A stretch of DNA of 64,000 bases from an uncultured Eubacteriales bacterium (GTDB lineage Bacteria > Bacillota > Clostridia > Oscillospirales > Oscillospiraceae): contig ONBX01000040.1 of the NCBI GenBank assembly GCA_900316205.1, forward strand, positions 1-64,000, given 5' to 3'. Under the pieces are notes generated by a model. That model saw nothing but the letters and a program-made list of their open reading frames with translations, did no database searches and was not told the origin of the DNA. Positions 3,444 through 56,355 of the stretch are shown here, piece after piece; position 1 is the first letter of the stretch; each line of letters opens with the position of its first letter. The position numbers and the translations under genes are program-made.

Positions 3444-3615
3444 CGATCCCCGTGCACGCGATATACGCGTGTACAAAAACAGGTTTCAGCCGCCCGATTG
3501 CGTGCCGGATATTCCTCCGACACCGGACATACTCCACGGAAGTTACCTCGGAAAGACCGAGCAATCTCCCGCTTCCTCGCATAATACGCCCGTGCTCTCG
3601 CACACGCGCTCCGTT

Positions 3616-6995: not shown

Positions 6996-7124
6996 GAGTG
7001 AAAAAGGAAGAGTGAAGAGTGAAAAGTTGTGGTATTTCCCTTCGGGAAATGGATTATGATCCGTCGCCGCAGGCGACGCCATTTCTTTTCTCTTTTCTCT
7101 TTTCTCTATTCACTTTTCACTTTA
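6996..7124. repeat. Heptad-armed hairpin element between pgeF and secA
   Basis: The right arm starts at the secA stop codon and on the minus strand reads AAGTGAA, AAGTGAA, TAGAGAA, AAGAGAA, AAGAGAA, AAGAAAT: six 7-nt units. The left arm (6996-7028) has units such as GTGAAGA and GTGAAAA and pairs loosely with it. Between the arms are two tight hairpins, TTTCCC-ttcg-GGGAAA and GTCGCC-gca-GGCGAC. The element at 11596-11718 has the same inside with different arm units. Confidence 0.75.
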
Positions 7125-9893
7125 CTCGTTTCTCCCGCAGCACTCTTTGTATTTCAGCCGTCTGCTGCCGTCGGCCTTCATCTTGCCGCAGGGGCAGGGG
7201 TCGTTGCGGCCGGGCTTGGGGGCCTTTTTCACCGGCTTTTTCTTTACCGGCTCCCCGCCCACATTGGCGGCGGCGTTCTTGGCCACGGCCTTGCGCTCGA
7301 TGGTCTGCTCCCGGCGGATCTGCACGGTGAAGAGGCGGCGCACCGTCTCCTCCCGGATGCCGGAAACCATGGCCTCAAACATGTCAAAGCCCTCCTGCTT
7401 GTAGGCGTCGATGGGCTTGACGGAGCCGTAGCCTCTCAGGCCGATGCCCCGCTTCAGCTCGGTCATGGCGTCGATGTGGTCCATCCAGTATTCGTCCACC
7501 ACTCGCAGCATGATCACCCGCTCCAGCTCCCGCATCAGGGGAATGCCCCGGGGATCCAGACCGAAGGCCGTCTCCCTGGCGGCATAGACCCGCTCGGCCT
7601 GCTCGGTGGCGGCAGCGATGAGCTTGTCGGTGCCGCTGCGGCCCTCGAAGTTCTGGGCGCGGAGCTGGCCCTTGGGCAGGAAGAGCTTCTCGAAGGGCTT
7701 GAGTACCTCGTCCAGCTGCTCCTGGTTCTCCACCCCGGCGCCGTTCAGGCCGGTAAGGACGGTACTGCTGACAAATTCCCGGATCATGCCCAGGATCTGC
7801 TCCTGCAGGTCCTCCCCGTCCAGCACCTTGCGCCGCTCGCCGTAGATGATCTCGCGCTGCTTGTTCATCACGTCGTCGTACTCCAGCACGTTTTTACGGG
7901 TCTGGAAGTTGCGGCTCTCCACGGTCTTCTGGGCCTGCTCGATGGAGTTGGAGAGGATCCTGGCGTCGATGGGCATGTCCTCATCGATCTTCAGGGTCTC
8001 CATCATGCCCTGAATCCGCTCGGAGCCGAAGAGGCGCATGATATCGTCGGTGAGAGCCAGGTAGAAGCGGCTCTCGCCCGGGTCGCCCTGACGGCCGGCG
8101 CGGCCGCGAAGCTGGTTGTCGATACGGCGGCTCTCGTGCCGCTCGGTGCCCAGGATGAAGAGGCCGCCGGCCTCACGGACCTTTTCCGCCTCCTCCCGGA
8201 TCTCGTCCTTATGCTCCTGGAGCTTCCGGGCGTAGAGCGCCCGGGCTGCCAGGATCTGCTCATCGTCGGTCTCGGCGTAGCCGGTGGCCTCGGCAATGAC
8301 CTCGTCGGGGAACTCCGCCTTGCGCAGGTCCTGCCGGGCCAGGAATTCCGCGTTGCCGCCCAGCATGATATCCGTGCCGCGGCCGGCCATGTTGGTGGCG
8401 ATGGTCACGGCCCCCAGCTTGCCCGCCTGGGCCACGATCTCTGCTTCCTTCTCATGGTACTTGGCGTTCAGCACCGTGTGGGGGACGCCCCGCATTTTCA
8501 GAAGCTTGGAGAGATATTCGCTCTTTTCGATGGACACCGTGCCCACCAGCACCGGCTGCCCCTTCTGATGGCAGGCGACGATCTGCTCGATGATGGCCCG
8601 GTTCTTGCCGGCTTCGTTCTTATATACCACATCGGGGTTGTCGATGCGGATGACGGGCTTGTTGGTGGGGATCTCGATGATGTCCAGCTTGTAGATGGTG
8701 CCGAACTCCTCCGCCTCGGTGACGGCGGTGCCGGTCATGCCGGAGAGCTTTTCGTAGAGACGGAAGTAGTTCTGGAAGGTGATGGTGGCCAGGGTCTTGT
8801 TTTCCTTCTGCACGTCCACGTGCTCCTTGGCCTCGATGGCCTGGTGAAGCCCTTCGGAGTAGCGGCGGCCCAGCATGAGACGGCCGGTGAACTCATCGAC
8901 GATGATGATCTCCCCGTCCTTCACGATGTAATCGATGTCCCGCTTCATGATGCCGTGGGCCTTCAGGGCCTGGTTGATGTGATGGGACAGCGTGGCGTTT
9001 TCGATGTCCGCCAGGTTTTCCAGGTTGAAGGCGCGCTCGGCCCGCTGGATGCCCCGGGCGGTAAGGGTGGCGGTGCGGGCCTTCTCATCCACCACATAGT
9101 CCGCGTCCAGATCCTCGCTCTCCTCCTGCTTCTCGTCCACGGAGGCGTAGACCACCTTTTTCAGGCGGGAAACGAAATCGTCCGCCTGACGGTAGAGGTC
9201 GGTGCTCTCGTCCCCCTGGCCGGAGATGATGAGGGGGGTCCTGGCCTCGTCGATGAGAATGGAGTCCACCTCGTCCACGATGGCAAAGACATGGCCCCGC
9301 TGGACCATGCTGGCCTTGTAGAGTGCCATGTTGTCCCGCAGGTAGTCGAAGCCCATCTCGTTGTTGGTGCCGTAGGTGATGTCGCAGGCGTAGGCCGCCC
9401 GGCGCTCCTCCGGCGTCAGGCCGTGGACGATCAGGCCCACGCTGACCCCCAGGAAGCGGTGCACCTTGCCCATCCATTCGCTGTCGCGGCGGGCCAGATA
9501 GTCGTTCACGGTGACGATGTGCACGCCCCGCCCGGTGAGGGCGTTGAGGTAGGCGGGGAGCACGGCCACCAGGGTCTTGCCTTCGCCGGTCTTCATTTCG
9601 GCGATGCGGCCCTGGTGCAGCACGATGCCGCCGATGAGCTGCACCCGGAAGGGCTTCATGCCCAGCACGCGCCAGGCCGCCTCTCTTGCGGTGGCAAAGG
9701 CCTCGGGCAGGATGTCGTCCAGGCTCTCCCCTTCGGCCAGTCTCTTTTTGAACTCCTCGGTCTTCTCCCGGAGCTGGGCGTCGCTCATGGCGGCGAATTT
9801 GGGCTCCAGGGCCTCAATGGCGTCCGCGATCGGATTTATCTTTTTCAGCTCCCGGTCCGAGTAGGTGCCGAAGAGCTTGGTAAACAGTCCCAT
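7122..9893 (-). CDS. secA: Preprotein translocase ATPase SecA
   Basis: Drives secretion through SecYEG. The 923-residue product starts [20 protein letters not shown]. It has Walker A MKTGEGKT at 101-107, the DEVDS motif of nucleotide-binding fold 1, the [14 protein letters not shown] motif of fold 2, the two-helix finger region, and a C-terminal zinc cluster [10 protein letters not shown]...CC that binds SecB or ribosomes in other species. A GGAAGG site lies 9 nt before the ATG. It is transcribed alone, and its stop codon is the first base triplet of a heptad repeat array. Confidence 0.98.
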
Positions 9894-9917: not shown

Positions 9918-9953
9918 AATTCGGAATTCGAAATGCGGAATTCGGAATTGTCC
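9918..9953. repeat. AATTCGG heptad tract upstream of secA
   Basis: Five 7-nt units in a row: AATTCGG, AATTCGA, AATGCGG, AATTCGG, AATTGTC. It lies between the secA start and the promoter of the DUF1846 gene. The same unit recurs at 42226-42260. Confidence 0.7.
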
Positions 9954-10116: not shown

Positions 10117-11598
10117 ATGTTCCGCATCGGCTTTGACAATGACAAGTATGTGAAGCTCCAGTCCGAGAAGATCCGGGAGCGGATCCGGCATTTCGGCAAG
10201 CTCTATCTGGAATTCGGCGGCAAGCTTTTTGACGACTATCACGCCTCCCGGGTCCTGCCGGGTTTCGAGCCGGACAGCAAGGTGAAGATGCTGCTGGAGA
10301 TGAAGGACGAGGCGGAGATCGTCATCGCCATCTCGGCGGACGATATCGAGCGCTCCAAGCGCCGGGGCGATCTGGGCATCACCTATGATGAGGACACCCT
10401 GCGCCTCATTGACGCCTTCCGGGACATCGGCCTTTATATCGGGAGCGTGGTCCTCACCCACTACCGGGGCCAGATGCTGGCGGACAAGTTCATCAAGCGG
10501 CTGGAGGCTCTGGGCATCCGCACCTACAAGCACTACATCATCCCGGATTACCCCTCCAACGTCCCCCTCATCGTCTCCGACGAGGGCTTCGGCAAGAACG
10601 ACTATATCGAAACCGAGCGCCTCCTGGTAGTGGTCACCGCCCCCGGCCCCGGCAGCGGCAAGATGGCCACCTGCCTGAGCCAGCTCTACCACGAGCACAA
10701 GCGGGGCGTGAACGCGGGCTACGCCAAGTTCGAGACCTTCCCCATCTGGAACCTGCCCTTGAAGCACCCGGTAAACCTGGCCTACGAGGCCGCCACCGCG
10801 GACCTGGACGACGTGAATATGATCGACCCCTTCCACCTGGAGGCCTATGGGGTCACCACCGTGAATTACAACCGGGACGTGGAGATCTTCCCCGTGCTGG
10901 AGGCCATTTTCAAGAGCATTTACGGTGAGAGTCCCTACAAGAGCCCCACAGACATGGGCGTGAACATGGCCGGCCTCTGCATCTCCGATGACGAGGCCTG
11001 CCGGGAAGCCTCCAAGCAGGAGATCATCCGCCGCTGGTACGCCGCGGCCGTCTCCGTGCGCCAGGGTCTCAGCGACCCCGCCGAGGTAAGGAAGATCGAG
11101 CTCATCATGAACTCCATGGGCGCAAGCCCCGCGGACCGGCCCGTTGTGGCCGCCGCCCTCAAGCGCGCCGAGGAGACCGACGGGCCCGCCATGGCCCTGG
11201 AGCTGCCCGATGGCAGCATCGTCACCGGCAAGACCACCTCCCTGCTGGGCGCCGCCTCCGCCTGCCTGATGAACGCCATGAAGAAGCTTGCCGGCATCGA
11301 CAAGAAGCTGCTGCTCATCACTCCCAACATCGTCCAGCCCATCCAGCACCTGAAGGTGGAGCACCTGGGCAATCACAACCCCCGCATGCACACCGACGAG
11401 CTGCTGATCGCCCTGTCCGTCTGCGCGGTGACGAATCCCATGGCCGCCTACGCCATCGACCAGCTGGACAAGCTCCGGGGCTGCGAGGCTCACTCCAGCG
11501 TCATCCTCTCCCGGGTGGACGAGGAGCTTTTCAAGAAGATCGGCGTAAACATCACCTTCGAGCCCCGCTACCAGGCCAAGAAGCTGTACCATAAATAA
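10117..11598 (+). CDS. DUF1846 (UPF0371) family protein
   Basis: Conserved Firmicutes/Actinobacteria family of unknown function with a P-loop-like fold. The 493-residue product has VTAPGPGSGKMATCLSQ near residue 175-191, which looks like a nucleotide-binding loop, and the family's acidic and histidine-rich C-terminal half (NHNPRMHTDELL). The start is set by GGGAGGG 7 nt upstream; an earlier in-frame codon has no such site. It is monocistronic. The stop TAA begins a heptad array (TAAGGGA, AGAAGGA, AAAGTGA, AAAAGGA, ATAAGGA). Confidence 0.88.
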   Translation: MFRIGFDNDKYVKLQSEKIRERIRHFGKLYLEFGGKLFDDYHASRVLPGFEPDSKVKMLLEMKDEAEIVIAISADDIERSKRRGDLGITYDEDTLRLIDAFRDIGLYIGSVVLTHYRGQMLADKFIKRLEALGIRTYKHYIIPDYPSNVPLIVSDEGFGKNDYIETERLLVVVTAPGPGSGKMATCLSQLYHEHKRGVNAGYAKFETFPIWNLPLKHPVNLAYEAATADLDDVNMIDPFHLEAYGVTTVNYNRDVEIFPVLEAIFKSIYGESPYKSPTDMGVNMAGLCISDDEACREASKQEIIRRWYAAAVSVRQGLSDPAEVRKIELIMNSMGASPADRPVVAAALKRAEETDGPAMALELPDGSIVTGKTTSLLGAASACLMNAMKKLAGIDKKLLLITPNIVQPIQHLKVEHLGNHNPRMHTDELLIALSVCAVTNPMAAYAIDQLDKLRGCEAHSSVILSRVDEELFKKIGVNITFEPRYQAKKLYHK

Positions 11599-11718
11599 GG
11601 GAAGAAGGAAAAGTGAAAAAGGAATAAGGAATGTGTTTCCCTTCGGGAAACGGATTATCATCCGTCGCCGCAGGCGACACCATCCTTATTCCCTCTTCGC
11701 TATTCCCTATTCCCTCCC
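11596..11718. repeat. Heptad-armed hairpin element after DUF1846 gene
   Basis: Left arm of 7-nt units begins on the stop codon of the gene. The right arm is CTTATTC, CCTCTTC, GCTATTC, CCTATTC, CCT. The inside is TTTCCC-ttcg-GGGAAA plus GTCGCC-gca-GGCGAC, almost the same as 7029-7080. The arms differ from that copy, so the inside is better conserved than the arms. Confidence 0.75.
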
Positions 11719-30283: not shown

Positions 30284-30341
30284 ATTCCGGCTCACGAGCC
30301 ATCGGAACCGCTTCTGAAGGCGGCGAGGCCGAGGAGCCGTT

Positions 30342-30476
30342 TGAATAATGAATACTGAAAACTGAAGAATGAATAATGAAGAATTGTGGTATCCCCTTCG
30401 GGGATGAATGAAAATATCGCGAAGCGATACCATGATTATTCACTTTTCAGTTTTAAGTATTCAGTATTCATTATCC
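30342..30476. repeat. Heptad-armed hairpin element upstream of der
   Basis: Left arm units: GAATAAT, GAATACT, GAAAACT, GAAGAAT, GAATAAT, GAAGAAT. Right arm: ATTATTC, ACTTTTC, AGTTTTA, AGTATTC, AGTATTC, ATTATCC. The inside has CCCC-ttcg-GGGG and TATCGC-gaa-GCGATA hairpins. A CTCCCC...GGGGAG palindrome (30478-30507) follows directly. Confidence 0.75.
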
Positions 30477-30519
30477 TGCGCTCCCCTTGCACAGGGGAGC
30501 TTATTAGGAAGGTGATACT

Positions 30520-31845: not shown

Positions 31846-32489
31846 TCCTCAACTGGTTTTTGCTGCTGCTGACGGCCTTTATTGCCTACGTCAGCGGCAG
31901 CGTCAGCACCCGGCGGGTGGCTTCCCGCTATGTGTTCAAGCGGGATCTGCTGAAGCTGGGCCGGGGCAACACCTGGCTTTCCAACTTCCGCCGCCTTTTC
32001 GGCTACCTGGGCTTTGCAAAGCTGGGCCTGGTGGAGATCGTGAAGGACCTGCTGCCCCTGCTCCTCGGGGCGCTGCTCATCGGCTTCCGCGGCCGGCCCG
32101 ACATCGGCCGCATCTTCGCGGGCTACTGTCTGATGCTGGGCCGTCTCTGGCCGGTGTTCAACCGCTTCAAGGGCGGCCACGGCTGCATGGCCCTGATCCT
32201 CATCGGCCTGCTCATTGAGCCCTCGGTGGGCATCACCGCGGCTCTTGGTGTGGTGGCCGGCATCTGGTTTGGCAAGAGCTTCACCGTGGGCGCCATGGCC
32301 GGCACCCTGGTGATGGCCATCGTTGCCGTCATGGTGGTGGAGGAGCAGCTGATCCTGATCATCACGGCGCTGATCTGCCTGCAGATGCTGGTACGCCACA
32401 TCCCCTCCATCCGCCGCATCCTCCGCGGCCAGGAGGAAAAGCTGAGCCTGGCGGAGGATCTCAGCTACAAATTTGATGAGAAGTTTTGA
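31842..32489 (+). CDS. plsY: PlsY-like glycerol-3-phosphate acyltransferase, divergent motifs
   Basis: PlsY moves acyl groups from acyl-phosphate to glycerol-3-phosphate, the first step of phospholipid synthesis. Position after der and the membrane topology support this family. The three catalytic motifs are altered: GSVSTRR where the family has GSxPTG, GRGNTWLSN for GSGNxGATN, and FKGGHGCMA for FKGGKGVAT. It may be a specialised or inactive paralogue. 215 residues. The stop codon is part of a run of 7-nt units (TTTTGAG, CTTTGAG, TTTTCAG, TTTTGAG). Confidence 0.78.
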   Translation: MILNWFLLLLTAFIAYVSGSVSTRRVASRYVFKRDLLKLGRGNTWLSNFRRLFGYLGFAKLGLVEIVKDLLPLLLGALLIGFRGRPDIGRIFAGYCLMLGRLWPVFNRFKGGHGCMALILIGLLIEPSVGITAALGVVAGIWFGKSFTVGAMAGTLVMAIVAVMVVEEQLILIITALICLQMLVRHIPSIRRILRGQEEKLSLAEDLSYKFDEKF

Positions 32490-32511
32490 GCTTTGAGTTT
32501 TCAGTTTTGAG
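32484..32511. repeat. TTTTGAG heptads at the plsY stop codon
   Basis: Four 7-nt units, TTTTGAG, CTTTGAG, TTTTCAG and TTTTGAG, run through the last codon and the TGA stop of plsY. Confidence 0.7.
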
Positions 32512-33621: not shown

Positions 33622-34239
33622 CTTCCGGTTCCGTGCTGCGTACAGCCCGGAACCACCCCCCCAAAGGGGGAGGCAAGCACAAGTGGCCCCCTTCCCCCTG
33701 TGCTCAGGGAAAGCTTTATGCGGCACCCCGAGGGAGGAAAACGGCATCCCCGGGGAAATCCAAAAGGGGCTCGCAAGCCCCGTTTGGTCGTTTGAATGAG
33801 GGAGGGTCCAGGGAGGGGGAGAAAACGAAATCTTCCCCTCCCTGGTGTGGAGCAAAAGAAAGGGACACCCTCGTCGCGGGGCAAGATCCTTCGTCGGCTT
33901 CGCCTCCTCAGGATGACAGCGCTGCGCGCTGTTCGGGTCGTCGAGGACGCCGACCCCTACAAAAAGGCCTGCGTTTATGCGCATAGGCGGGGCGGCAACG
34001 ACGTTCCCGGACGAGCGCGTATCCCCCCGGCCCTCGCATGCTCGGGCCACCCCCCTTTAGGCAAGGGGGGCTTTGTTGCGGGCGGCCAATGGCCGTCCGT
34101 GCGGCAGAAAGATCGGCGCAAGAAAGACCTCATCCACCGCAAGCGGTCCCCCTTCCCGTGCGCGGGGAAGGCTTTGCGCCCCCCGCTCCACAAGTACCGC
34201 TCACTGCTTTCCGTTCCGGAACCTAAAAACTAAAAACTG
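33622..34239. other. Gene-free mosaic of palindromic repeats
   Basis: Contains CCCCCCCAAAGGGGGAGG, CCTTCCCCCTGTGCTCAGGG, CCCCTCCCTGG/CCAGGGAGGGG, a GAGGACGCCGACCCCTAC end and GGCGGCCAATGGCCGTCC. No open frame has a ribosome-binding site or family likeness. The right end merges with CTAAAAA heptads at 34222-34245. Confidence 0.65.
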
Positions 34240-34291
34240 AATAAACCGAAAGCCTGTGAAAACGCTCGTTTTCACAGGCTTTCGGTTTATT
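34240..34291 (-). terminator. 24-bp perfect hairpin over the ricT stop codon
   Basis: AATAAACCGAAAGCC... (34240-34263) pairs perfectly with 34268-34291, with a 4-nt loop. The TAA of ricT (34289-34287) lies inside the stem. On the minus strand the stem is followed by TTCAGTTTTTAGTTTTTAGG, a U-rich heptad tract, so it could act as the terminator of holB-ricT. Confidence 0.75.
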
Positions 34292-35645
34292 CTGCCTTCT
34301 CCCCGGGGGCCTTGGGTTTGCGGGGTCTGCGGCGGCGGCTGCCGCTGCGGTGCTGACCTTCGGCCTTGGGGCTCTGCTCCGGCTTCTCCCGCTTTTCGGT
34401 TTCCGGCTTTTCCTGGGGGGCCTTGTTCTCGGCCTTCACCGCCTTCACATGGCTGTGACGGCGGCCGGAATTGCTCTTGCGGTTTTCCTGGGGTTTGGCC
34501 TCTTTTTCCGCCTCGGCGGGCTTTTCCTGCTTCGGCTTCGGCTGCTTCTGGGGCTTTTTGCTCTGCTCGCTCTTTTTAAGCTCAGGCTTCTTCTCCGGCT
34601 GGGCGTCCCTGGGCTGCTCGGGCTGCTCGCCCCGGCTCCTCCGTCCGCCTCTGCGGCGGCTGCGCCGGCCCTCCTCCGGGATCTGGGCAGCCTCGGCGGG
34701 CGTTTCCGTCTCCTGGGGCTCCGCCGCCACCATGGCGGGGATGTTCCACTCATCCTCAGCCGGCTCCTGGGCTTCCGGTTCCTCGGGCACGTAGTTCAGC
34801 ACATGGGGCGGCTCCTCCCCGTCCCGGGGTCTGCCGCCGGGCACGGCGGCCAGCTCGTTGGCCTTGTAGACATGCAGGGTGTCGTCCTTATCCTGGTCCA
34901 GCTTCACCTTCACGGTCTGGCGGAGGAGATTCACCTGGGCGGCGGTGCCGTAGCCGTCGATGGTCTCCACAAAGGCGCCCTGCTTGGGCACCTTCTTGAT
35001 GAGATCCTCATAGGCGTCCTGCTCATAGCGCAGACAGCACATCAGGCGGCCGCAGCTGCCGGAGATCTTGGTGGGGTTGAGAGACAGGGACTGGACCTTG
35101 GCCATCTTGGTGGACACGGGCTGGAAATCATCCAGAAACTGACTGCAGCAGAAGGGGCGGCCGCAGATGCCGATGCCGCCGATCATCTTGGCTTCGTCCC
35201 TTACGCCGATCTGGCGCAGCTCGATGCGGTTGCGGAAGATGCCGGCCAGGTCCTTCACCAGCTCCCGGAAGTCCACCCGCCCGTCGGCGGTGAAAAAGAA
35301 CATGGTCTTGTTCCCCTCGAAGTTGCACTCCACGTCCACCAGCTTCATCTCCAGGCCGTGCTCGGCGATCTTCTGCTGGCAGATCTGGAAGGCCTCCTTC
35401 TCCCGCTTCTTGTTCAGCTCCTCGATCCGGAGATCATCGGCGGTGGCGATGCGGGCCACGGGGCGCAGGGGCTGCACCACGGCGGTCTCCTCCACCCAAT
35501 GGTTGCCCCGGCTGCACTCGGCGATCTCCAGGCCCTTGGCCGTCTCCACGATGACCTTGACGCCGGTGGCGATCTCCATGCCGTTGGGGGCGAAGGAATA
35601 GCTCTTGCCCCGGTTCTTAAAACGAATACTGACGATTTCGATCAA
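34287..35645 (-). CDS. ricT: PSP1-domain protein RicT (YaaT) with long disordered tail
   Basis: RicT binds RicA and RicF with iron-sulfur clusters; in Bacillus the complex controls RNA processing by RNase Y and affects sporulation and competence. The PSP1 domain is clear (GGIGICGRPFCCSQFLDDFQ with the C-x4-CC cysteines, then SGSCGRLMCCLRYE). Translation starts at TTG, judged by GAGGAG 7 nt upstream and its position 2 nt after the holB stop. The family is about 270-300 residues; this one has 452 because of a Pro/Glu/Lys/Arg-rich tail from about residue 285 with RRSRRRGGRRSR and many KPEQ-like units. Confidence 0.9.
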   Translation of the reverse strand: MIEIVSIRFKNRGKSYSFAPNGMEIATGVKVIVETAKGLEIAECSRGNHWVEETAVVQPLRPVARIATADDLRIEELNKKREKEAFQICQQKIAEHGLEMKLVDVECNFEGNKTMFFFTADGRVDFRELVKDLAGIFRNRIELRQIGVRDEAKMIGGIGICGRPFCCSQFLDDFQPVSTKMAKVQSLSLNPTKISGSCGRLMCCLRYEQDAYEDLIKKVPKQGAFVETIDGYGTAAQVNLLRQTVKVKLDQDKDDTLHVYKANELAAVPGGRPRDGEEPPHVLNYVPEEPEAQEPAEDEWNIPAMVAAEPQETETPAEAAQIPEEGRRSRRRGGRRSRGEQPEQPRDAQPEKKPELKKSEQSKKPQKQPKPKQEKPAEAEKEAKPQENRKSNSGRRHSHVKAVKAENKAPQEKPETEKREKPEQSPKAEGQHRSGSRRRRPRKPKAPGEKAE

Positions 35646-40350: not shown

Positions 40351-40575
40351 AAAAAAAGAAGGTGCTGTCTCAAAATGCGGTAAGGCGGAAAAAGTAGGGG
40401 CGGCTATCAGCCGCCCGGCAGCGCTGGTTTGAAGTAGCACAAAAATGTGAGGCGCATTTGTACTTTCCTGCGAATGCGCCTCACATTTCTATCTTTTTGA
40501 CATATTACCGCGCGGGCGGCTGGTAGCCGCCCCTACGTTCATTTATGGACTTTTGAGACAGCCCCTTCTTTTTTG
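40351..40575. mobile_element. Composite MITE-like element, copy 1
   Basis: Outer inverted ends GAAGGTGCTGTCTCAAAA (40358-40375) and TTTTGAGACAGCCCCTTC (40551-40568), flanked by A and T runs. Inside is a GTAGGGG element (40394-40536) with the hairpin AAATGTGAGGCGCATTTG... closing GCGCCTCACATTT. The copy at 51298-51530 is the reverse complement, with a few substitutions and a longer hairpin flank. GCTGTCTCAAAA-type ends are typical of insertion-sequence termini; no transposase is inside. Confidence 0.8.
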
Positions 40576-42225: not shown

Positions 42226-42287
42226 AATTCCGAACTCCGAATTCCGAATTCCGAATTATTCCCCGTCCTCTAAAAACTAAAAACTTA
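42226..42287. repeat. Heptad tract starting at the pepP stop codon
   Basis: Minus strand from the stop: TAAGTTT, TTAGTTT, TTAGAGG, ACGGGGA, ATAATTC, GGAATTC, GGAATTC, GGAGTTC, GGAATTG. Nine units without a break in the 7-nt frame, although the unit sequence changes along the tract. Confidence 0.75.
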
Positions 42288-43364
42288 ATTGTGCAGGACG
42301 ATGAGCTCCATCTTGGGGGCCTTGGTGATGACCTCGGCGCCCTCGGGGCGGATGATCATCACGTCCTCGATGCGCACGCCGAACTTGCCGGGGATGTAGA
42401 TGCCGGGCTCGGCGGAGCAGAGGTCGTTGACCTCCATGAGGGCATCGCCCCGGGGACCGGCCATGGGCGGCTCGTGGATATCCAGACCCAGGCTGTGGCC
42501 GAAGCCGTGGCCGAAGTAGGCGCCGTAGCCGGCCTTTTCGATAACGTCACGGGCGGCCTGGTCGATGAGCTTGCCGGGGATGCCGGAGCGGGCGGCGGCG
42601 ATGCCGGCCAGCTGGGCCTCCAGCACGGTGTAGTAGATCTTCTCCATCTCCTCGGTGGCATGGCCCACGGCAACGGTGCGGGTCATGTCGGAGCAGTAGC
42701 CGTTTTTCAGGCTGCCGAAGTCCATGGTGATAAAGTCCCCGTCCTGAATGACGGTGTCTCCGGGCACGCCGTGGGGCATGGAGGTGTTCTTGCCGGTAAC
42801 CACGATGGGGTCAAAGGAATTGCCCTCGCTGCCGTTACGCAGCATGTGATACACCAGCTCCGCCATGACCTCCTTCTCGGTCATGCCGGGCTTGATGATA
42901 TGCAGCACTTCCTCCAGGGCCTTTTCGCTGATGCGCTGGGCCCGGATCATGCTGTCGATCTCCTCCTGGTTCTTGCTGGCGCGCAGCGACATCATGAAGT
43001 CTCCGGCGGGCAGGAACTCCCGACCCAGGGCCTTCTCCAGGGCGGCCCAGCGGGCGTGGCTCAGCTGCTGGTCCTCGGCGGCGAGACGCTCCGCCTTGGC
43101 TTCGGTAAGAGCGGCGCGGATCAGATCCATCTGGCTGTGCTGCCGGTCAAACATCTGCACGGTGCAGCAGTCCCCGGCGATGTTCTCGGCGGCCTCGATG
43201 TAGCGGGAATCGGTGAGCAGCCAGGCCTTCTCCCGGCCCACCACCACGGCGCCGTCGGTGAAGGCAAAGCCGGTGGCGTAGCGCTGGTTCTTTTCATCGG
43301 TGATGAGGATGGCGTCCAAATCCTTCCGGATAAGCGCTTCCTGAATGCGGGCAATGTTGTTCAT
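42285..43364 (-). CDS. pepP: Xaa-Pro aminopeptidase-like M24 metallopeptidase
   Basis: Removes N-terminal residues before proline. Pita-bread fold with all five metal ligands: D in FITMDFGSL, D in CSDMTRT, H in GHGFGHSLGLDIHE, E in CSAEPGIYIPG and E in VRIEDVM. 359 residues, with the creatinase-like N-terminal domain (1-125). The first four bases overlap the sensor-kinase stop (ATGA). Located upstream of efp, as in many Firmicutes; which of these peptidases is meant biologically is not known. Confidence 0.92.
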   Translation of the reverse strand: MNNIARIQEALIRKDLDAILITDEKNQRYATGFAFTDGAVVVGREKAWLLTDSRYIEAAENIAGDCCTVQMFDRQHSQMDLIRAALTEAKAERLAAEDQQLSHARWAALEKALGREFLPAGDFMMSLRASKNQEEIDSMIRAQRISEKALEEVLHIIKPGMTEKEVMAELVYHMLRNGSEGNSFDPIVVTGKNTSMPHGVPGDTVIQDGDFITMDFGSLKNGYCSDMTRTVAVGHATEEMEKIYYTVLEAQLAGIAAARSGIPGKLIDQAARDVIEKAGYGAYFGHGFGHSLGLDIHEPPMAGPRGDALMEVNDLCSAEPGIYIPGKFGVRIEDVMIIRPEGAEVITKAPKMELIVLHN

Positions 43365-44752
43365 GTTTCCTCCTTAGAACTTGGCCGGGGGAACGACACG
43401 GTGAAGACCGATCCCTGCGGCGTATTTTGACCGACTTCGATACTGCCTCCCAGAGCCAGCACCGTGTCGTGTACAATACTGAGTCCCAGGCCGCTGCCCC
43501 CGGCCTCCCGGGAGCGGGCCTTGTCCACCCGATAGAAGCGGGAGAAGATGTTCGCCCGGTCCTCCTCGGGGATGCCGATCCCCGTGTCGGAGACAGCGAG
43601 GGTCACCTGCTTTTCGTCGCCCCGCAGGGCGATGCGCACCGCCCCGCCGGGGACATTGTATTTCACGGCGTTTTCCACCAGATTGAAGACGATGTGGAAC
43701 AGGTCGTCCTCCGTGGCCCGGATGCGGCAGCCGTCCTCCAGCGCCGTCTCCAGGCTCACCTGCTTTTCCTGGGCCAGGGGGCGCAGGGGCGTCAGCGTGT
43801 CCAGCACCACCTGCTTTACATCCACGCTCACCAGCTCCCTCTCCACGCTGTCATCCAGGCGGGACAGGGTCAGGAGCTTGTCGGTGGTGCGCTGGAGGCG
43901 CTTGGCCTCGTTGCCGATATCGGTGACAAATTCCCGCATGGTGGCGGCGTCCACATTCTCGTTCTGCACGATGCTGTCCGCCAGCAGACGGATGGAGGCC
44001 AGTGGCGTTTTCAGTTCATGGGAGGCGTCGGACACAAAGCGCCGCCGCTGCTCCTCCGTGGTCTCCAGCCTTTCGGTGAGCTGGTTGAACTCCTCCCCCA
44101 GCTCGGAGATCTCATCCCGGCCCCGGTTCACATGGCGGTAGCTGTAGTCTCCCCCGGCCACCACCCGCATGGAGCGCACAATGGCCCGGATGCGGTTTAC
44201 CAGCAGGAATACATAGACCAGGGCCAGCACCAGGGCCAGGGCCCCGATGGCGAGAGAGGCCGCCCGGATCCGGTTCTGGAAGCCCAGCAGCATCTCGGCC
44301 CGCTCCTCATCCCGCTCGGCAAGATAGAGGGCGCCGGTCAGCTCCCCCTGGGCGCTGAGGGGGATGGCGATGCTGCTGAGGAAGGCCGCCTCCCGGAAGG
44401 AGGAGCGGAACACCGTCTTCCCGGTGAGGCAGGTCAGCAGATCCGCCGGGATCTGGCCGCCTGCCTGGCCGGCGGAGTCATAGAGACTGCCGCCGGAGCG
44501 GTCCGCCACCAGCACCCGGGTATAGCCGCTGAGATCCAGGTAGCGCAGCACCTCGGTGATGTTCTCCGGATTCAGCCGTTCCAGGCCGGAGAGGGAGGAG
44601 GCCAGGGTGGAGGCCTGGGCCGTCATGGAGCTGCGCTTCTCCTCAAACACCGCGTCCCGGGAAGAGGTCAGCGGATAGATGTTCAGCAGCAGCAGCAAAA
44701 CCAGCAGCAGCGCCGTGATGAAGGAGATAAATTGTATGCGGATACTGTGCAT
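43361..44752 (-). CDS. Two-component sensor histidine kinase (PhoR/WalK-like)
   Basis: Membrane sensor: helix at about 8-27, an outer domain to about 160, helix at about 165-187, then HAMP (VVAGGDYSYRHVNRGRDEIS). The phosphoacceptor is in FVSDASHELKTPLASIR, and the ATPase domain has NLVENAVKYN, DTGIGIP and GGSGLGLSIV. 463 residues from an ATG with GGAG 9 nt upstream; a TTG two codons earlier is less likely. It pairs with the response regulator upstream, but 227 bp of repeat DNA separates the two. Confidence 0.92.
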   Translation of the reverse strand: MHSIRIQFISFITALLLVLLLLLNIYPLTSSRDAVFEEKRSSMTAQASTLASSLSGLERLNPENITEVLRYLDLSGYTRVLVADRSGGSLYDSAGQAGGQIPADLLTCLTGKTVFRSSFREAAFLSSIAIPLSAQGELTGALYLAERDEERAEMLLGFQNRIRAASLAIGALALVLALVYVFLLVNRIRAIVRSMRVVAGGDYSYRHVNRGRDEISELGEEFNQLTERLETTEEQRRRFVSDASHELKTPLASIRLLADSIVQNENVDAATMREFVTDIGNEAKRLQRTTDKLLTLSRLDDSVERELVSVDVKQVVLDTLTPLRPLAQEKQVSLETALEDGCRIRATEDDLFHIVFNLVENAVKYNVPGGAVRIALRGDEKQVTLAVSDTGIGIPEEDRANIFSRFYRVDKARSREAGGSGLGLSIVHDTVLALGGSIEVGQNTPQGSVFTVSFPRPSSKEET

Positions 44753-44771
44753 AGGCAAATACTCCGTATTT

Positions 44772-44982
44772 GAAGGGAAAAGAGAAGAGTGAAGAGTGAA
44801 GAGTTATGGTATCGGCTTCGCCGATGATTGAAATATCCCCTATCCCCCAGTGTTCGCACTGGGGACTTCCCCCTGAGGGGGAAGCAAGCAGGTATCTTGC
44901 CTCCCCCCTGGGGAGGCGGCCGAGCCGCTTGCGGCAAGGTCGGAAGGGGTTCATTTCTTCATTCTTCTCTCTTCACTATTCA
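44772..44982. repeat. Heptad-armed element split by a second repeat
   Basis: Left arm 44772-44808 (units like GAAGAGT and GAGTGAA) and right arm 44951-44982, which on the minus strand reads TGAATAG, TGAAGAG, AGAAGAA, TGAAGAA from the regulator's stop. Between them the inner hairpin CGGC-ttcg-CCG is followed by a second element (44837-44951). Confidence 0.75.
44837..44951. repeat. Stacked-hairpin element (CCTATCGG type) nested in the heptad element
   Basis: CCCCCAGTGTTCGCACTGGGG, CTTCCCCCTGAGGGGGAAG, CCTCCCCCCTGGGGAGG and CCGCTTGCGG in the same order as 15389-15511. Its place between two heptad arms shows it inserted after the heptad element formed. Confidence 0.7.
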
Positions 44983-45669
44983 CTTTTCACTAAAATAGTA
45001 CCCCACGCCCCATTTGGTGGCGATGTAGTCGGGATGGGCGGGGTCCAGCTCCAGCTTTTCCCGGAGCCGGCGGATGTGCACGTCCACGGTACGGGTATCG
45101 CCCTGGTATTCATAGCCCCAGACCAGATCCAGCAGGGCCTCCCGGCTGTAGACCCGGCCGGGATTTTTCATCAGGAAGAGGATCAGGTCGAACTCCTTCA
45201 TGGTCAGTTCCACCGGAACCCCGTCCTTCCAGGCGGTGCGCCGCTCCTCGTCCACTGCAATGTGCCCCCGCTGCAGCGCGGTGGCGGAGCCCTGGGTCCC
45301 CGGGGCGGAGAGGCCGGCCCGGCGCAGCAGGGCCCGGACCCGGGCCTTCAGCACCATGATGTCGAAGGGCTTGGTCACGTAATCGTCGGCCCCGGACTCA
45401 AAGCCCATGAGCATGTCCGCCTTTTCGCTGCGGGCGGTGAGCATGATGATGGGCACGGTGGAAAAGCCGCGGATCTCCTGGCAGGCCTCCAGCCCGTCCT
45501 TCTTGGGCATCATCAGGTCCAGGATGATCAGGTCATAGCTGCCGGTCCTGGCCATGGAAACGGCCATTTCCCCGTCATAGCCCACATCCACGGTGTAGCC
45601 CTCATTCTCCAGATTGAATTTGATGCCCTTCACCAGGAGCTTTTCGTCGTCAACGACCAGAATTTTCAT
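44980..45669 (-). CDS. OmpR/PhoP-family response regulator
   Basis: Receiver domain 1-120 with the acidic pair D7-D8, phosphoacceptor D51 (LIILDLMMP) and K in YVTKPFD. A winged-helix DNA-binding domain follows at about 130-229, with LTMKEFDLILFLMKNPGRV and TRTVDVHIRRLREKL. 229 residues. Its kinase is the next gene. The final codons SEK and the TGA fall in a 7-nt repeat (AGTGAAA, AGTGAAT, AGTGAAG), so the end of the protein may have been shaped by the repeat. Confidence 0.94.
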   Translation of the reverse strand: MKILVVDDEKLLVKGIKFNLENEGYTVDVGYDGEMAVSMARTGSYDLIILDLMMPKKDGLEACQEIRGFSTVPIIMLTARSEKADMLMGFESGADDYVTKPFDIMVLKARVRALLRRAGLSAPGTQGSATALQRGHIAVDEERRTAWKDGVPVELTMKEFDLILFLMKNPGRVYSREALLDLVWGYEYQGDTRTVDVHIRRLREKLELDPAHPDYIATKWGVGYYFSEK

Positions 45670-45809: not shown

Positions 45810-47024
45810 ATGAAAATTTTCAGAATTATTCCCGTCCTGCTGGTCCTGTGCCTCCTGTTTGCGCTCTTTGCCCCCTGCGCCCTGGCGCTGGACGGGCCCC
45901 AGCTCACGGCCCAGGCGGTACTGCTGGCGGATCTGGACAGCGGCGCCATCCTCTATGAGGTGAACGCCGACGCCCGGCGCTCCCCCGCCAGCATCACCAA
46001 GATCATGACCCTGATGCTGACGCTGGAAGCTGTGGAGCGGGGCGAGATCAGCATGGACGATATGGTGACCGCCGGGGCCGATTGCCGCCGGGGCATGCGG
46101 GATGACAGCAGCAGCGCCGGCATCGTCGCGGGTGAACAGCTGACTCTGCGGGATCTGCTCTACTGCGCGGCGGTGGCCTCCGGCAACGACGCCTGCAACG
46201 TGCTGGCCGCCTATGTGGCGGGGGACATTCCCTCCTTTGTGGCCCTGATGAACCGGCGGGCCGAAGGTCTCGGCTGTTCCCAGACCCATTTTGTGGACCC
46301 CCACGGGCTTTCCTATGACAACCTGACCTCCGCAAGGGATCTGTACCGCATCACCCTGGAGGCCATGCGTCTGCCCTCCTTCATGACCTTCTGCGACTGT
46401 CATGCCGTCACCATCCCGGAGACCAACGTGTTTCCGCCCCGGGATCTCAAAAGCTCCAACGCCCTCATCTCCGACCAGGGGATCTACGGCGACCGCTATC
46501 TCTATGAGGGTGCCCACGGCGTGAAGACCGGCTATACCCGGGCTGCTGGCTACTGCCTCATCTCCACGGCGGAGCGAAACGGCCTGCGTCTTCTGGCCAT
46601 CGTCCTGGGCTGCGACGGGCCCTATCTCTCCGACACCGATACCCGCTACAGCTTTGTGGACAGCGCCAAGCTCTATGACTGGGCTTTCGAGAGCTTCCGC
46701 ACCCGGGAGCTCTGCACCCCGGGGCAGACCCTTGCCCGCTGCAGGGCCGCCTCCGCCTGGGGCGATGACGAGCTCTCCCTGCTGGCAGGGGGCGCGCTCT
46801 CCGCGCTGCTGCCCGCCGGGGCAGAGCCGGAGCTCCGGCTGGAGGTGGCGGACGATGCGCTCCAGGCTCCCATTGCCGCCGGGCAGCCTCTGGGCGAGGC
46901 CATCTTCCTCCTGGAAGAGCGAGAGCTGGGCCGGGTGCCTCTTGTGGCCGGGCGCAGCGTGGACCGAAGCCTCTGGGCCTATGTGGCCCGTACCGTGAAA
47001 GAAACTATAGAAACGGGAGTTTAG
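45810..47024 (+). CDS. Serine D-Ala-D-Ala carboxypeptidase (S11), copy 1
   Basis: Trims the stem peptide of peptidoglycan outside the membrane. Signal peptide MKIFRIIPVLLVLCLLFALFAPCALA is cleaved after about residue 27. The S61-I-T-K64 active-site tetrad, SGND and VKTGYT are present. 404 residues; the C-terminal domain is shorter than copy 2 and there is no anchoring helix, so it may be released or held by its amphipathic end. A GGGAG site precedes the ATG. One base separates its stop from copy 2. Confidence 0.9.
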   Translation: MKIFRIIPVLLVLCLLFALFAPCALALDGPQLTAQAVLLADLDSGAILYEVNADARRSPASITKIMTLMLTLEAVERGEISMDDMVTAGADCRRGMRDDSSSAGIVAGEQLTLRDLLYCAAVASGNDACNVLAAYVAGDIPSFVALMNRRAEGLGCSQTHFVDPHGLSYDNLTSARDLYRITLEAMRLPSFMTFCDCHAVTIPETNVFPPRDLKSSNALISDQGIYGDRYLYEGAHGVKTGYTRAAGYCLISTAERNGLRLLAIVLGCDGPYLSDTDTRYSFVDSAKLYDWAFESFRTRELCTPGQTLARCRAASAWGDDELSLLAGGALSALLPAGAEPELRLEVADDALQAPIAAGQPLGEAIFLLEERELGRVPLVAGRSVDRSLWAYVARTVKETIETGV

Positions 47025-47025
47025 C

Positions 47026-48519
47026 ATGAAAAGAACACGATTCCTTTCCCTTTTTCTGATCCTTTGTCTCCTTGCCGCGATGTTTGCACCTTTTGCTCTG
47101 GCCGAGGAGCCGGAGGAGACCACCGAGTACCCGGAGGACCCGGGTCCCTCCGTCACCCCCACCCCGGAAGGGGTCCGGCTGGAGGGTCCGGAGCTCAGCG
47201 CCCAGGCCGTCCTGCTGGTGGACCTGGAGAGCGGCACCATCCTCTATCAGCTCAACAGCTCCTACCCCCGCTCCCCCGCCAGCCTCACCAAGGTCATGAC
47301 CGTGCTGCTGGCCCTGGAGGCTGTGGATCGGGGCGAGGTGAGTCTGGACGACGTGATCACCGCGGGGCTGGACTGCCAGAACGGTATGAGCGATGACAGC
47401 AGCAGCGTGTACATCGTGGCCGGGGAACAGCTGACCCTCCGGGATCTGCTCTACTGCGCGGCAGTCTCTTCCGGCAATGACGCCTGCAATGTCATTGCCT
47501 CGTATCTCGGCAACGGCATCCCCAATTTCGTGGACCGGATGAACCAGCGGGCAGCGGAGCTGGGCTGCACCATGACCCGCTTTGTGGACCCCAACGGCCT
47601 TTCCAACGACAATCTCACCAGTCCCTACGATCTCTATCTGATCACCCGGGCCGCCATGGGCTACCCGTCCTTCATGGAGATCTGCGACTCCACCTCCTAC
47701 AACGTGCCCGCCACCAACGTGAACCCCGCCCGGGAGCTGAAAAACTCCAACGCCCTCATCTCTCCCGACGGCATCTACGGCCCAGGCTACCTCTACGAGG
47801 GGGCCCACGGCATCAAGACCGGCTACACCCGGGCCGCAGGCTACTGCCTCATCTCCACAGCCCAGCGGGACGACATGCATCTGCTCGGCATCGTGATGGG
47901 CTCTGACGGGCCCTACCTCTCCGACACCGAAGAGCGCAAGAACTTCTCCGACTCCGCCAAGCTCTATGACTGGGCCTTCGCCAACTTCACCATGCGCACC
48001 GTCATCACCGAGGACGAGGTGCTGGACTTTGCGGATGTGGCTCTGGCCGAGGGAGACGCCCGGGTGGGTCTCAAACCCCAGCGCAGCGTCCGCTTCCCCC
48101 TGCCCAACAACGTGGAGCCGGGCGAGGAGGACATCCGCATCGAGCTATTCGACCAGAACCTGACCGCGCCGGTAGAGGCCGGCACGGTGCTGGGTGTGGC
48201 CCACGTGCTCTATGACGGGCGGGAATTTGCCTCCGCCCGGCTGGTGGCCTCCGGCAGCGTGGATCTGAACCGCTGGGAGTATTTCAAGCAGCACATCCGG
48301 GAATCCCTGGCCCGTCCCGCGGTGCTCATCGTGATCCTGGTGATCCTGGTGCTGGTGTCGGCCTATCTGGCCCTGGTCACCCGCTACCGGCTGCTGCGCC
48401 GCAAGCATCTGAAGCAGCGGCGTCTGGCCGAGCAGCGCCGGCGGGAGCTGGCCCGCCAGCGGGCGGAGGAAGCCGCCCGGGCGGAAAACGGCACCCCCTT
48501 TGATAAAGATTTGTTTTAA
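47026..48519 (+). CDS. Serine D-Ala-D-Ala carboxypeptidase (S11), copy 2, membrane-anchored
   Basis: Same enzyme family as the gene before it, and clearly its duplicate: SLTK (S86-K89), SGND and IKTGYT are conserved and most of the catalytic domain matches. Differences are an added Glu/Pro/Thr-rich linker after the signal peptide, a C-terminal helix at about 427-449 (AVLIVILVILVLVSAYLALV) and a basic tail rich in Arg (RRLAEQRRRELARQRAEE). The tail should lie in the cytosol. 497 residues. The two copies are co-transcribed. Confidence 0.92.
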   Translation: MKRTRFLSLFLILCLLAAMFAPFALAEEPEETTEYPEDPGPSVTPTPEGVRLEGPELSAQAVLLVDLESGTILYQLNSSYPRSPASLTKVMTVLLALEAVDRGEVSLDDVITAGLDCQNGMSDDSSSVYIVAGEQLTLRDLLYCAAVSSGNDACNVIASYLGNGIPNFVDRMNQRAAELGCTMTRFVDPNGLSNDNLTSPYDLYLITRAAMGYPSFMEICDSTSYNVPATNVNPARELKNSNALISPDGIYGPGYLYEGAHGIKTGYTRAAGYCLISTAQRDDMHLLGIVMGSDGPYLSDTEERKNFSDSAKLYDWAFANFTMRTVITEDEVLDFADVALAEGDARVGLKPQRSVRFPLPNNVEPGEEDIRIELFDQNLTAPVEAGTVLGVAHVLYDGREFASARLVASGSVDLNRWEYFKQHIRESLARPAVLIVILVILVLVSAYLALVTRYRLLRRKHLKQRRLAEQRRRELARQRAEEAARAENGTPFDKDLF

Positions 48520-48534
48520 CGGCAAAGGAACCTT

Positions 48535-49833
48535 ATGGAAGAACAGCTGAAAAAGAAAGAACGGGCCGTGCTGGCCGGACTCTCCGCCGCCAGCATGGAC
48601 GAGCATGAGCGCTCCACGGATATCTCCATGGAGGAGCTGGCCGCCCTGGTGGAGACCGCCGGCGGCGAGGCCGTGGCCATGCTGATCCAGAGCCGGCCCA
48701 GCCCCGAGCCCCGCAGCTTCATCGGCGAGGGCAAGGTACAGGAGATGAAGCAGCTCATTGAGGACAATGACTGCGACCTGGCCGTGTTTGACAACGAGCT
48801 CTCCCCCTCCCAGATGCGGGTCCTCTCCGAGGATCTGGGCGTGAAGGTGCTGGATCGCTCGGGCCTGATCCTGGACATCTTCGCCCAGAGGGCCCAGACA
48901 AAAGAAGGCCAGCTCCAGGTAGAGCTGGCCCAGTATAAGTATCTGCTCCCCCGACTCACCGGCATGTGGACTCACCTGGTGCGGCAGACCGCTTCCGGCG
49001 GCTCCTCCCCCATCGGCACCCGCGGCCCCGGCGAGACCCAGCTGGAGACCGACCGGCGCCACATCCGCCGGAAGATCCAGAAGCTGGAGGAGGAACTGGC
49101 CGCCGTGCGCAAGGTGCGTTCCACCCAGCGCCGCCGCCGGGAAAAGAACGCCATGCCTGTGGTGGCCCTGGTGGGCTACACCAACGCGGGCAAATCCACC
49201 CTGCTGAATTGCCTCACCGGTTCGGATATCCCCGCAAACGACCGGCTTTTCGACACGCTGGACACCACCACAAGACGCCTGCGCATCGACGAGAGCACCG
49301 AGGTGCTTTTATCCGATACCGTGGGCTTCATCCGCAAGCTCCCCACCCACCTGATCGAGGCCTTCAAAGCTACTTTGGAGGAATTGGCCTTTGCGGACGT
49401 GCTGCTGCACGTCATCGACATTTCCAATCCCGAGTGGGAGGAGCAGGCAAGGGTGGTAAACGAGCTGATCCGGCAGCTTGGCGCCGAGGGGACCCCCTGC
49501 CTGCGGATCTTCAACAAGTGCGACCGCTATATCGGCATCCTGCCCCACGGGGAGGATGTGGTCTGCATCTCCGCTAAAAGCGGCGAGGGCTCCGACCGCC
49601 TGGTACAGAAGCTCTCGGAGCTGCTGGATCGGGGCAAGAAGCAGGTGACGCTGCTGCTGCCCTATGCCGCGGCGGGGCTGCTGGACAGTCTCAACCGGGA
49701 GGCCAAGGTCCTGCGCACGGAATATACCGATGCCGGCATCGAGGTGGAGGCCGTGGTCCAGCCGGATCTCTTCGGTCGGGTGAAGCAGTACATTCCCGGC
49801 TACGAGGAGCCGAAGGAAGACTGGGAAGATTAG
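48535..49833 (+). CDS. hflX: GTPase HflX
   Basis: Ribosome-splitting GTPase that rescues stalled ribosomes. N-terminal HflX domain has IGEGKVQEMKQLIEDND and the ribosome-contacting GPGETQLETDRR. The G domain starts with GYTNAGKSTLLN near residue 212 and has DTVGFIRKLP and NKCD. 432 residues is normal. It starts 15 nt after the carboxypeptidase. The TAG stop starts the 7-nt tract TAGTTTT, AGTTTTT, AGGAGAC. Confidence 0.95.
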   Translation: MEEQLKKKERAVLAGLSAASMDEHERSTDISMEELAALVETAGGEAVAMLIQSRPSPEPRSFIGEGKVQEMKQLIEDNDCDLAVFDNELSPSQMRVLSEDLGVKVLDRSGLILDIFAQRAQTKEGQLQVELAQYKYLLPRLTGMWTHLVRQTASGGSSPIGTRGPGETQLETDRRHIRRKIQKLEEELAAVRKVRSTQRRRREKNAMPVVALVGYTNAGKSTLLNCLTGSDIPANDRLFDTLDTTTRRLRIDESTEVLLSDTVGFIRKLPTHLIEAFKATLEELAFADVLLHVIDISNPEWEEQARVVNELIRQLGAEGTPCLRIFNKCDRYIGILPHGEDVVCISAKSGEGSDRLVQKLSELLDRGKKQVTLLLPYAAAGLLDSLNREAKVLRTEYTDAGIEVEAVVQPDLFGRVKQYIPGYEEPKEDWED

Positions 49834-49872
49834 TTTTAGTTTTTAGGAGACGTAGGAGAGGGAGACGAGGTC
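49831..49872. repeat. Heptad tract at the hflX stop codon
   Basis: TAGTTTT, AGTTTTT, AGGAGAC, GTAGGAG, AGGGAGA. The stop TAG is the first unit's start. Confidence 0.6.
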
Positions 49873-51297: not shown

Positions 51298-51530
51298 AAA
51301 AAAGGGACTGTCTCAAAAGTCCCAAAATGAACGTAGGGGCGGCTACCAGCCGCCCGCGCGGTAATATGTCAAAAAGTAAGAAATGTGAGGCGCATTCGCA
51401 GGTAAGTACGAATGCGCCTCACATTTCTCACATTTTTGTGCTACTTCAAACCAGCGCTGCCGGGCGGCTGATAGCCGCCCCTACGGCACTTTTTCCGCCT
51501 TACCGCATTTTGAGACAGCACCTTTTTTTG
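51298..51530. mobile_element. Composite MITE-like element, copy 2 (inverted)
   Basis: Outer ends AAAAAAGGGACTGTCTCAAAA and TTTTGAGACAGCACCTTTTTTT. Inner GTAGGGG element 51333-51484, hairpin AAATGTGAGGCGCATTCG / CGAATGCGCCTCACATTT. Relative to 40351-40575 it is reversed, and the region TTTTTCCGCCTTACCGCATTTTG is shared in part. It ends 14 bp before the methyltransferase stop codon. Confidence 0.8.
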
Positions 51531-51544
51531 TGCTTTTTTCTCTT

Positions 51545-56250: not shown

Positions 56251-56260
56251 GTCTTTAATC

Positions 56261-56329
56261 GTAGGGGCGGCTATCAGCCGCCCGCCGTCGATCTCCCTGT
56301 GAAAACGGGCGGCTGATAGCCGCCCCTAC
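56261..56329. mobile_element. Short GTAGGGG palindrome pair between dgt and dnaG
   Basis: GTAGGGGCGGC-tatca-GCCGCCC, a 22-nt middle and the mirrored copy ending CGCCCCTAC. No central hairpin. Confidence 0.7.
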
Positions 56330-56355
56330 GAGGAGACGGAAAGGGAGGTGATCCT

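Follow-up and report, generated by a model that had tools for sequence, protein, structure and literature searches.

Seven-nucleotide arrays behind stop codons of an uncultured Oscillospiraceae genus may be arms of small dispersed palindromic elements

Introduction

Why should the stop codons of several genes open onto tandem rows of 7-nucleotide (nt) units? The question is raised by a 64,000-nt stretch of DNA from an uncultured Eubacteriales bacterium of the family Oscillospiraceae (contig ONBX01000040.1 of assembly GCA_900316205.1), here called the window. The original prediction, made from the window alone, had pointed to such rows at the stops of six genes (secA, a DUF1846-type gene, plsY, pepP, a response regulator and hflX), and had suggested either templated or slippage-driven addition at gene ends or an element that targets stop codons. 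Bacterial tandem repeats favour seven bases. In the genus studied here, one and the same stop may differ between sister species in the heptamer family it bears, in the orientation of the copy or in having any array at all, which allows growth, arrival and copying between arms to be separated by comparison. We report that the pattern is real and strong, and that it is partly explained: we see about an even chance that the rows are arms, or probable arm remnants, of small dispersed palindromic elements that lie directly behind native stops, having spread and entered there.

Results

Period-7 arrays are in excess at stop codons

The window belongs to a draft genome (G000; 2.78 Mb, 88 contigs), and its closest named secA relatives are uncultured Oscillospiraceae, Eubacteriales or Bacillota genomes. 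The main sample comprised G000 and six relatives of the same genus, with 1,769 sampled genes (944 for G000 alone). An array was counted if it had period 7, a score of at least 10 and a beginning 0-3 nt past the stop. Genes were called with a hexamer model made for this analysis, and elsewhere taken as longest frames, including for the counts in other genera and in Trichormus given below. G000 stretches were partly picked from contigs already known for arrays of family F1 (the names F1-F4 were coined in this analysis), sequences L181-L203 were picked as orthologs of the window, and L204-L220 and L226-L245 were picked for their matches; because of this choice the array frequencies are inflated, while offsets and register should not be.

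Arrays were counted at 102 of the 1,769 genes, as compared to 0.4 in shuffled spacers and to 1-4 genes for periods 5, 6, 8 and 9, which bears out the predicted excess of 7-nt periodicity at stops. For G000 alone the count was 45 of 944 (dinucleotide shuffles: mean 0.3, maximum 2; periods 5, 6, 8 and 9: 1, 2, 1 and 1), and a smaller seven-genome sample gave 91 of 1,135, with 0-3 for periods 3-6 and 8-13. Adjacent arrays were found at 7 of 1,105 start codons. In the named relatives, the region around secA gave a count of 8 for 395 open reading frames. Within G000, 54 strict lag-7 arrays lay in the first 776 kb, 51 of them noncoding, and 0-3 arrays at each lag from 2 to 30 that is not a multiple of 3 or 7; seven-nt units thus exceed other lengths and are mostly intergenic, as heptanucleotide simple repeats are. 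The window itself contained 7 strict lag-7 arrays (score at least 12), with 0-2 at the other lags up to 30 that are not multiples of 7. When post-stop sequence only was considered, 3 of the 51 window genes passed (secA, DUF1846 and the regulator), and none in each of 20 dinucleotide shuffles.

The arrays also cluster tightly. Left edges behind stops reached 10.6 per kb at 0-9 nt versus 0.4-0.7 at 10-49 nt, array edges being 14-25 times denser in the nearer interval, and a second rise was seen at 50-99 nt (0.5-3.1 per kb), where the second arms of the elements described below fall. Among the 123 noncoding arrays of G000, an edge fell between -15 and +9 of a stop in 52 cases; at starts there was no such case. 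Given this clustering and the excess at stops, the tracts are neither without preference for stops nor equally common elsewhere in the genome. We rejected compression of any intergenic insertion against the stop as a cause, because the other dispersed palindromes in these genomes show no comparable crowding at stops.

STRR heptamers are cyanobacterial repeats, and 250 kb of Trichormus variabilis plasmid A were taken as a comparator. This sequence had an excess of period 7, with 8 arrays (periods 2-6 and 8-13: 0-3). Three of them lay within 10 nt behind stops and two equally close to starts, numbers that are too small for a statement on position.

The arrays are in register with native stops

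The units had been described as in register with the stop codon, and this proved correct. In 58 homologous groups, represented by one gene each, stop bases equalled the base 7 nt further on in 56% of cases at phase 0, as compared to 26-34% at phases 1-6 and to 41 +/- 3% when stop codons were exchanged between genes (highest of 200 repeats, 49%). The match was 0.32, 0.63 and 0.80 for the first, second and third stop base, respectively; the phase is therefore genuine, but with the lowest match at its first base, the stop often contributes no T to the unit.

The C-terminal length of array-bearing genes was equal to that of the closest truly arrayless ortholog in 27 of 44 cases and within 1 residue in 41. 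All array-versus-arrayless comparisons gave 60 of 68 within 1 residue, and a looser count, in which some of the 'arrayless' orthologs held sub-threshold arrays, gave 72 of 80; the ortholog pairs share genes and are not independent. This near-equality indicates that the arrays begin behind native stops. It also bears on the least probable of the explanations considered, an annotation artefact in which any frame that enters a stop-bearing array ends there. Indeed, F1 arrays stop every frame within about 21 nt, but the native C-termini, together with the fact that arrays whose unit has no stop triplet (F2, 8 listed) also abut stops, led us to reject the artefact for most cases.

Units had further been seen to run back into the last codons of plsY and of the regulator. 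They do so, but arrayless orthologs already have near-identical end codons: that of plsY in G036 ends AAGTTCTGA and that of the regulator in G033 ends GAGAAGTGA.

Unit sequences fall into four families

The period had been thought fixed and the unit sequence free. The latter is not the case: 66 of the 71 stop arrays (a set that includes orthologs) fall by simple patterns into four families, and the remaining 5 are F1 or F3 variants by eye. The units are GTGAARA and GGGAAKA for F1, AATTCGG for F2, GTTTTKA for F3 and GTKCGTA for F4, the last being found in G006, G036, G040 and G030. TGA or TAG is contained in F1, F3 and F4 units; as a period of 7 is 1 modulo 3, a stop triplet in each unit provides stops in all three frames. 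None of these units is of the Xanthomonas type (GGGNATC) able to form G-quadruplexes. Across the family, the F1 array pattern turned up in 21 of 120 genomes.

Related arrangements were observed further afield. In another genus of the family, an F1-like core (GTTGTGGTGTCGCCTTCGGCGACGATGAT) lies behind GAGTGGA-type heptamers at a stop (L245, near 14041, minus strand). A goat-gut Oscillospiraceae metagenome-assembled genome (L077; 75% secA identity) carries three palindromes with AGGAATT-type heptamer arms, at 220-333, 3204-3278 and 4107-4184, two of which are beside stops.

Arrays pair as inverted arms around a common core

An inverted copy of the array was found within 320 nt for 31 of the 70 stop arrays with enough downstream sequence (one of the 71 was dropped), as compared to 4 with a direct copy and 0 for shuffled arms; inverted pairs are thus as frequent a feature here as in Xanthomonas-type heptamers. 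Arms matched their own partner better than the partners of others (17.0 versus 11.6), with 30 of 36 above the median.

A search that paired purine and pyrimidine arms at 25-85 nt spacing yielded 31 F1 candidates, 28 of which were kept by eye. F1 elements measure 105-135 nt, are dispersed, and consist of two hairpins of variable stem closed by the arms; like miniature inverted-repeat transposable elements (MITEs), they form dispersed non-coding copies with terminal inverted repeats. Most cores share the frame GGTRTC-hairpin-GAYGRATT-nn-AATCCGTC-hairpin-GACACC. The two stems showed 18 and 20 different 5' arms in the 28 copies, and only this diversity counts as evidence, because stems were picked as perfectly paired and a few of the picks are spurious short stems. 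Whole elements had a mean folding z of -6.8 (range -12.0 to -2.3; 40 mononucleotide shuffles each). Cores were counted by pattern search, a covariance model that matched only one hairpin not being used. Among 61 genomes of the genus the core pattern had up to 37 matches (G030) and none in 20 genomes, the reversed-pattern control giving 0-1; where a genome had one to few matches, these were often chance matches without a hairpin.

The same stops differ between sister species

The secA stop carries F1 in G000 and G021, F3 in G036, F4 in G006 and no array in G033, G040 and G030. That of the DUF1846 gene carries F1 in G000 and G021 and F4 in G036, G006 and G040, and is arrayless in G033, G030 and four named outgroups. 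None of the five relatives for which a plsY ortholog was retrieved (G006, G030, G033, G036 and G040) has the plsY array. Between the regulator and kinase genes, the spacer measures 10-25 nt in 20 of 29 relatives and 207-290 nt in G000, G021, G036 and G040, where heptamer arms start from the regulator stop; G030 has a bare, coreless 78-nt heptamer array at this stop, two relatives have 43 nt, and three have 153-280 nt with different palindromic repeats.

These comparisons weigh on the proposal that the arrays are selected 3'-end elements, in which a hairpin or multi-frame stop array stabilises mRNA, aids termination or catches readthrough. Their position behind native stops, with none at starts in G000, their palindromic folding and the TGA or TAG inside F1, F3 and F4 units are all in keeping with it, as is the DUF1846 locus of G036, in which two convergent genes each bear a heptamer array and the arrays flank a terminator-like hairpin. 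However, the same stops are arrayless in relatives (plsY in five of five, and others too), F2 units have no stop, and F1 is restricted to a minority of the family. We regard a selected role as unlikely.

G000 and G021 offer the closest comparison, with 161 usable ortholog pairs of 165. Arrays were present in both genomes at 8 stops, only in G021 at 3 and only in G000 at 1 (at threshold). Orientation was kept in 8 of these 12 pairs, the core was inverted in 2 and the remaining 2 were unclear. The DUF1846 core is among those inverted, whereas the secA element has the same orientation in both genomes, and in G021 exactly one 7-nt unit fewer per arm.

Pure replication slippage would call for nothing mobile: a polymerase-favoured 7-nt step would expand the local stop sequence, and template switching at hairpins would invert the arms. 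Period 7 is dominant, as in the polymerase idea that Mrazek put forward for the heptamer excess (2007, as cited in PMC4679880), and the coreless array of G030, the one-unit differences between G000 and G021 and the unit-like codons that already end arrayless plsY and regulator orthologs fit as well. Nevertheless, a handful of unit families is found again and again at genes that are unrelated, F1 copies have a core in common, and by eye the bases past arrayless secA and DUF1846 stops are unlike the units there. Growth from a local seed alone is thus less likely, and we judge slippage as the whole explanation to be improbable. The suggested templated or slippage-driven addition has some support in the one-unit difference at secA, but the recurrence of families and the shared F1 core speak against units being made anew at every gene.

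Heptamer features and other repeats of the window

The six named stops were read directly in the sequence (Table 1). Period-7 rows stood up at secA, DUF1846, plsY and the regulator; that of pepP is short, with only 2.3 perfect units where the G036 ortholog has four, and hflX fails on its own, although its ortholog in G021 has period 7.

Table 1. Heptamer features of the window, in window coordinates.
Feature	Position	Strand	Details
F1 element at the secA stop (stop codon 7122-7124)	6996-7134	-	Stop-side arm 7084-7134, extending over the stop; core about 7028-7083; far arm 6996-7027
F2 array (AATTCGG)	9918-9949	.	Divergent secA-DUF1846 spacer, 24 nt from a start; a counter-example
F1 element at the stop of the DUF1846-type gene (ends 11598)	11594-11715	+	Arms 11594-11632 (array imperfect) and 11683-11715, two-hairpin core between
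F1-like element	30342-30474	+	Arms 30342-30384 and 30439-30474, 82% complementary; 58 nt past a stop, not abutting
F3 array across the plsY stop (ends 32489)	32482-32511	+	GTTTTGA units
Short F3 array (CTAAAAA on +)	34220-34241	-	Past a terminator-like hairpin, 45 nt from the stop of gene 34287-35645
Composite at the pepP stop (42285)	42226-42285	-	2.3 F3 units 42270-42285, then F2 array 42226-42257 (AATTCCG on +)
F1 element in the spacer of response regulator (stop 44980) and kinase genes	44773-44991	-	Arms 44955-44991 (array extending over the stop) and 44773-44804; other palindromic repeats break up the core
hflX stop (49833), two irregular F3-like units	49831-49846	+	TAG TTTTAG TTTTTAG, spacing 6 then 7

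An Rfam scan of the window at the gathering score gave no match for the heptamer elements, and only sub-threshold matches in the stretch 30320-30490. The sole match at that score was an S10-Clostridia ribosomal protein leader at 3502-3585 (minus strand).

The window and its close relative also contain other repeats. Two copies of a palindromic repeat of about 200 nt, with TGTCTCAAAA/TTTTGAGACA ends, lie at 40361-40565 and 51298-51539, and a 129-nt stretch is 94% complementary between them; G021 lacks the first copy and has a short hairpin resembling a terminator in its place, and the repeat is likely a MITE. A dispersed GTAGGGGCGGCTATCAGCCGCCC hairpin family occurs at 4008-4152, 40394-40538, 51332-51486 and 56259-56331, often as inverted pairs and with no marked clustering at stops. 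G021 has a further mobile repeat of about 200 nt, starting GTAAACGATGATTCAATCGGC, with two copies (L204:8282-8508 and L182:14786-15065) that are absent at the matching places of G000. Two neighbouring genes at 45887-47928 contain two 300-nt stretches that are 76-78% identical, and are probably a tandem duplication.

Discussion

A possible route to stop-seated elements

In F1, which is the family resolved best, the two heptamer arms can pair into a long stem that encloses a core of two hairpins plus a mini-hairpin; the result is a cloverleaf 105-135 nt in length. If the rows are indeed arms of such dispersed palindromic elements, copies would have been disseminated within the genome and would enter beside stops, probably aided by microhomology between the stop triplet and a stop-like triplet of the unit (TGA, TAG or GGA). 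After entry, 7-nt replication slippage could alter the number of units, and copying or recombination between the paired arms could keep them complementary and sometimes flip the element. Stops may be favoured since an insertion there spares the gene and a matching triplet is on offer. The suggestion that an element targets stop codons fits the data within the genus well, where edges lie at native stops, families differ and other palindromes are unclustered, although this pattern of position need not reflect an act of targeting. A bolder version, in which the arms of mobile cloverleaf DNAs recognise stops as landing sites by in-phase triplet pairing, unrelated families of sister species converge on the same stops, and the hairpin serves to keep arms and core symmetrical and inverted, appears to us doubtful. 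If a stop triplet did guide entry, this would be an unusual choice of target for mobile DNA, one that spares the genes of the host.

Several observations weigh against elements that spread and enter at stops. Three of the 44 array genes end 2, 3 or 6 residues from the end of their ortholog, and a strong inverted partner is lacking for 39 of the 70 stop arrays. The F1 stems were chosen for perfect pairing, so that the pairing itself lends no support. In other genera of the family the stop bias is weak, with 2.97 edges per kb at 0-9 nt, then 1.25, 2.63 and 2.90, and 0-1.8 further on. G000 and G021 share most of their stop arrays, so no gain was caught, and in the four non-shared cases the matching place holds an F1 core or an array that is shorter or shifted. 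Neither the indel scan, whose junctions were mostly those of other repeats, nor the comparison of G000 and G021 yielded a target-site duplication or an exact empty-versus-filled junction. As to a mobiliser, G036 (83% complete) and G044 (95%) are rich in core matches but gave no Y1_Tnp match, and none of 25 fetched Y1_Tnp or reverse-transcriptase loci held a core (PF01797 and PF00078 only, searched in 16 genomes; other transposase families were not searched).

Four of these 25 loci bear heptamer arrays of some family. A Y1 transposase or a reverse transcriptase was rejected as mobiliser, there being no association with cores. This leaves very little room for a system like that of repetitive extragenic palindromes (REPs) and REP-associated tyrosine transposases (RAYTs), in which a Y1 transposase moves palindromes. 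Y1_Tnp matches, mostly weak, do occur in G000, G021, G030, G040, G006 and G045, but G001 and G060, both without any core match, have strong ones, and in G036 and G044 no RAYT gene match accompanied the palindromes.

Comparison with known systems

The original prediction knew of no standard element with fixed unit length and free sequence. This was mistaken, as heptanucleotide repeats and the GGGAATC heptamers of Xanthomonas were described before; among the open-access literature matches listed, none described families of the F1-F4 type in Oscillospiraceae. The stop-seated, heptamer-armed repeats of these gut bacteria are a sharper and more varied form of a pattern reported in other bacteria.

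MITEs are, like the elements studied here, short, dispersed and without a gene, and have inverted ends. In the present case no target duplication or parent transposon was found (PF01797 and PF00078 searched), and the arms are tandem heptamers of variable unit.

Among long simple repeats, heptanucleotides are reported to be the commonest in most genomes (Mrazek 2007, cited by PMC4679880 and PMC4692102). The excess of 7-nt units is common to both, while the arrays described here are imperfect, belong to few families per genome, form inverted arms and are anchored at stops. According to PMC4679880, the TAACTGA repeats of Beggiatoaceae are likewise heptamers with stop triplets, dispersed and patchy across lineages, but they lie mainly just upstream of starts, with a single inverted case reported, whereas those studied here lie behind stops. 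The heptanucleotide elements of Geobacter (PMC2700814) are also tandem, with some classes paired on opposite strands; they are described as predicted regulator-binding sites or RNA elements, and stop codons are not mentioned in the excerpts of that report.

The closest likeness is to the GGGAATC heptamers of Xanthomonas (Rehm et al. 2015, PMC4692102; Calothrix is also mentioned there), which lie near or over stop codons with a strong stop bias and often form inverted pairs, as is the case here. Xanthomonas has one G-rich unit family. In the genus analysed here the units fall into four families, none of them G-rich, F1 has a cloverleaf core, the family at a given stop can change from one sister species to the next, and the arrays have a tested register with the stop codon.

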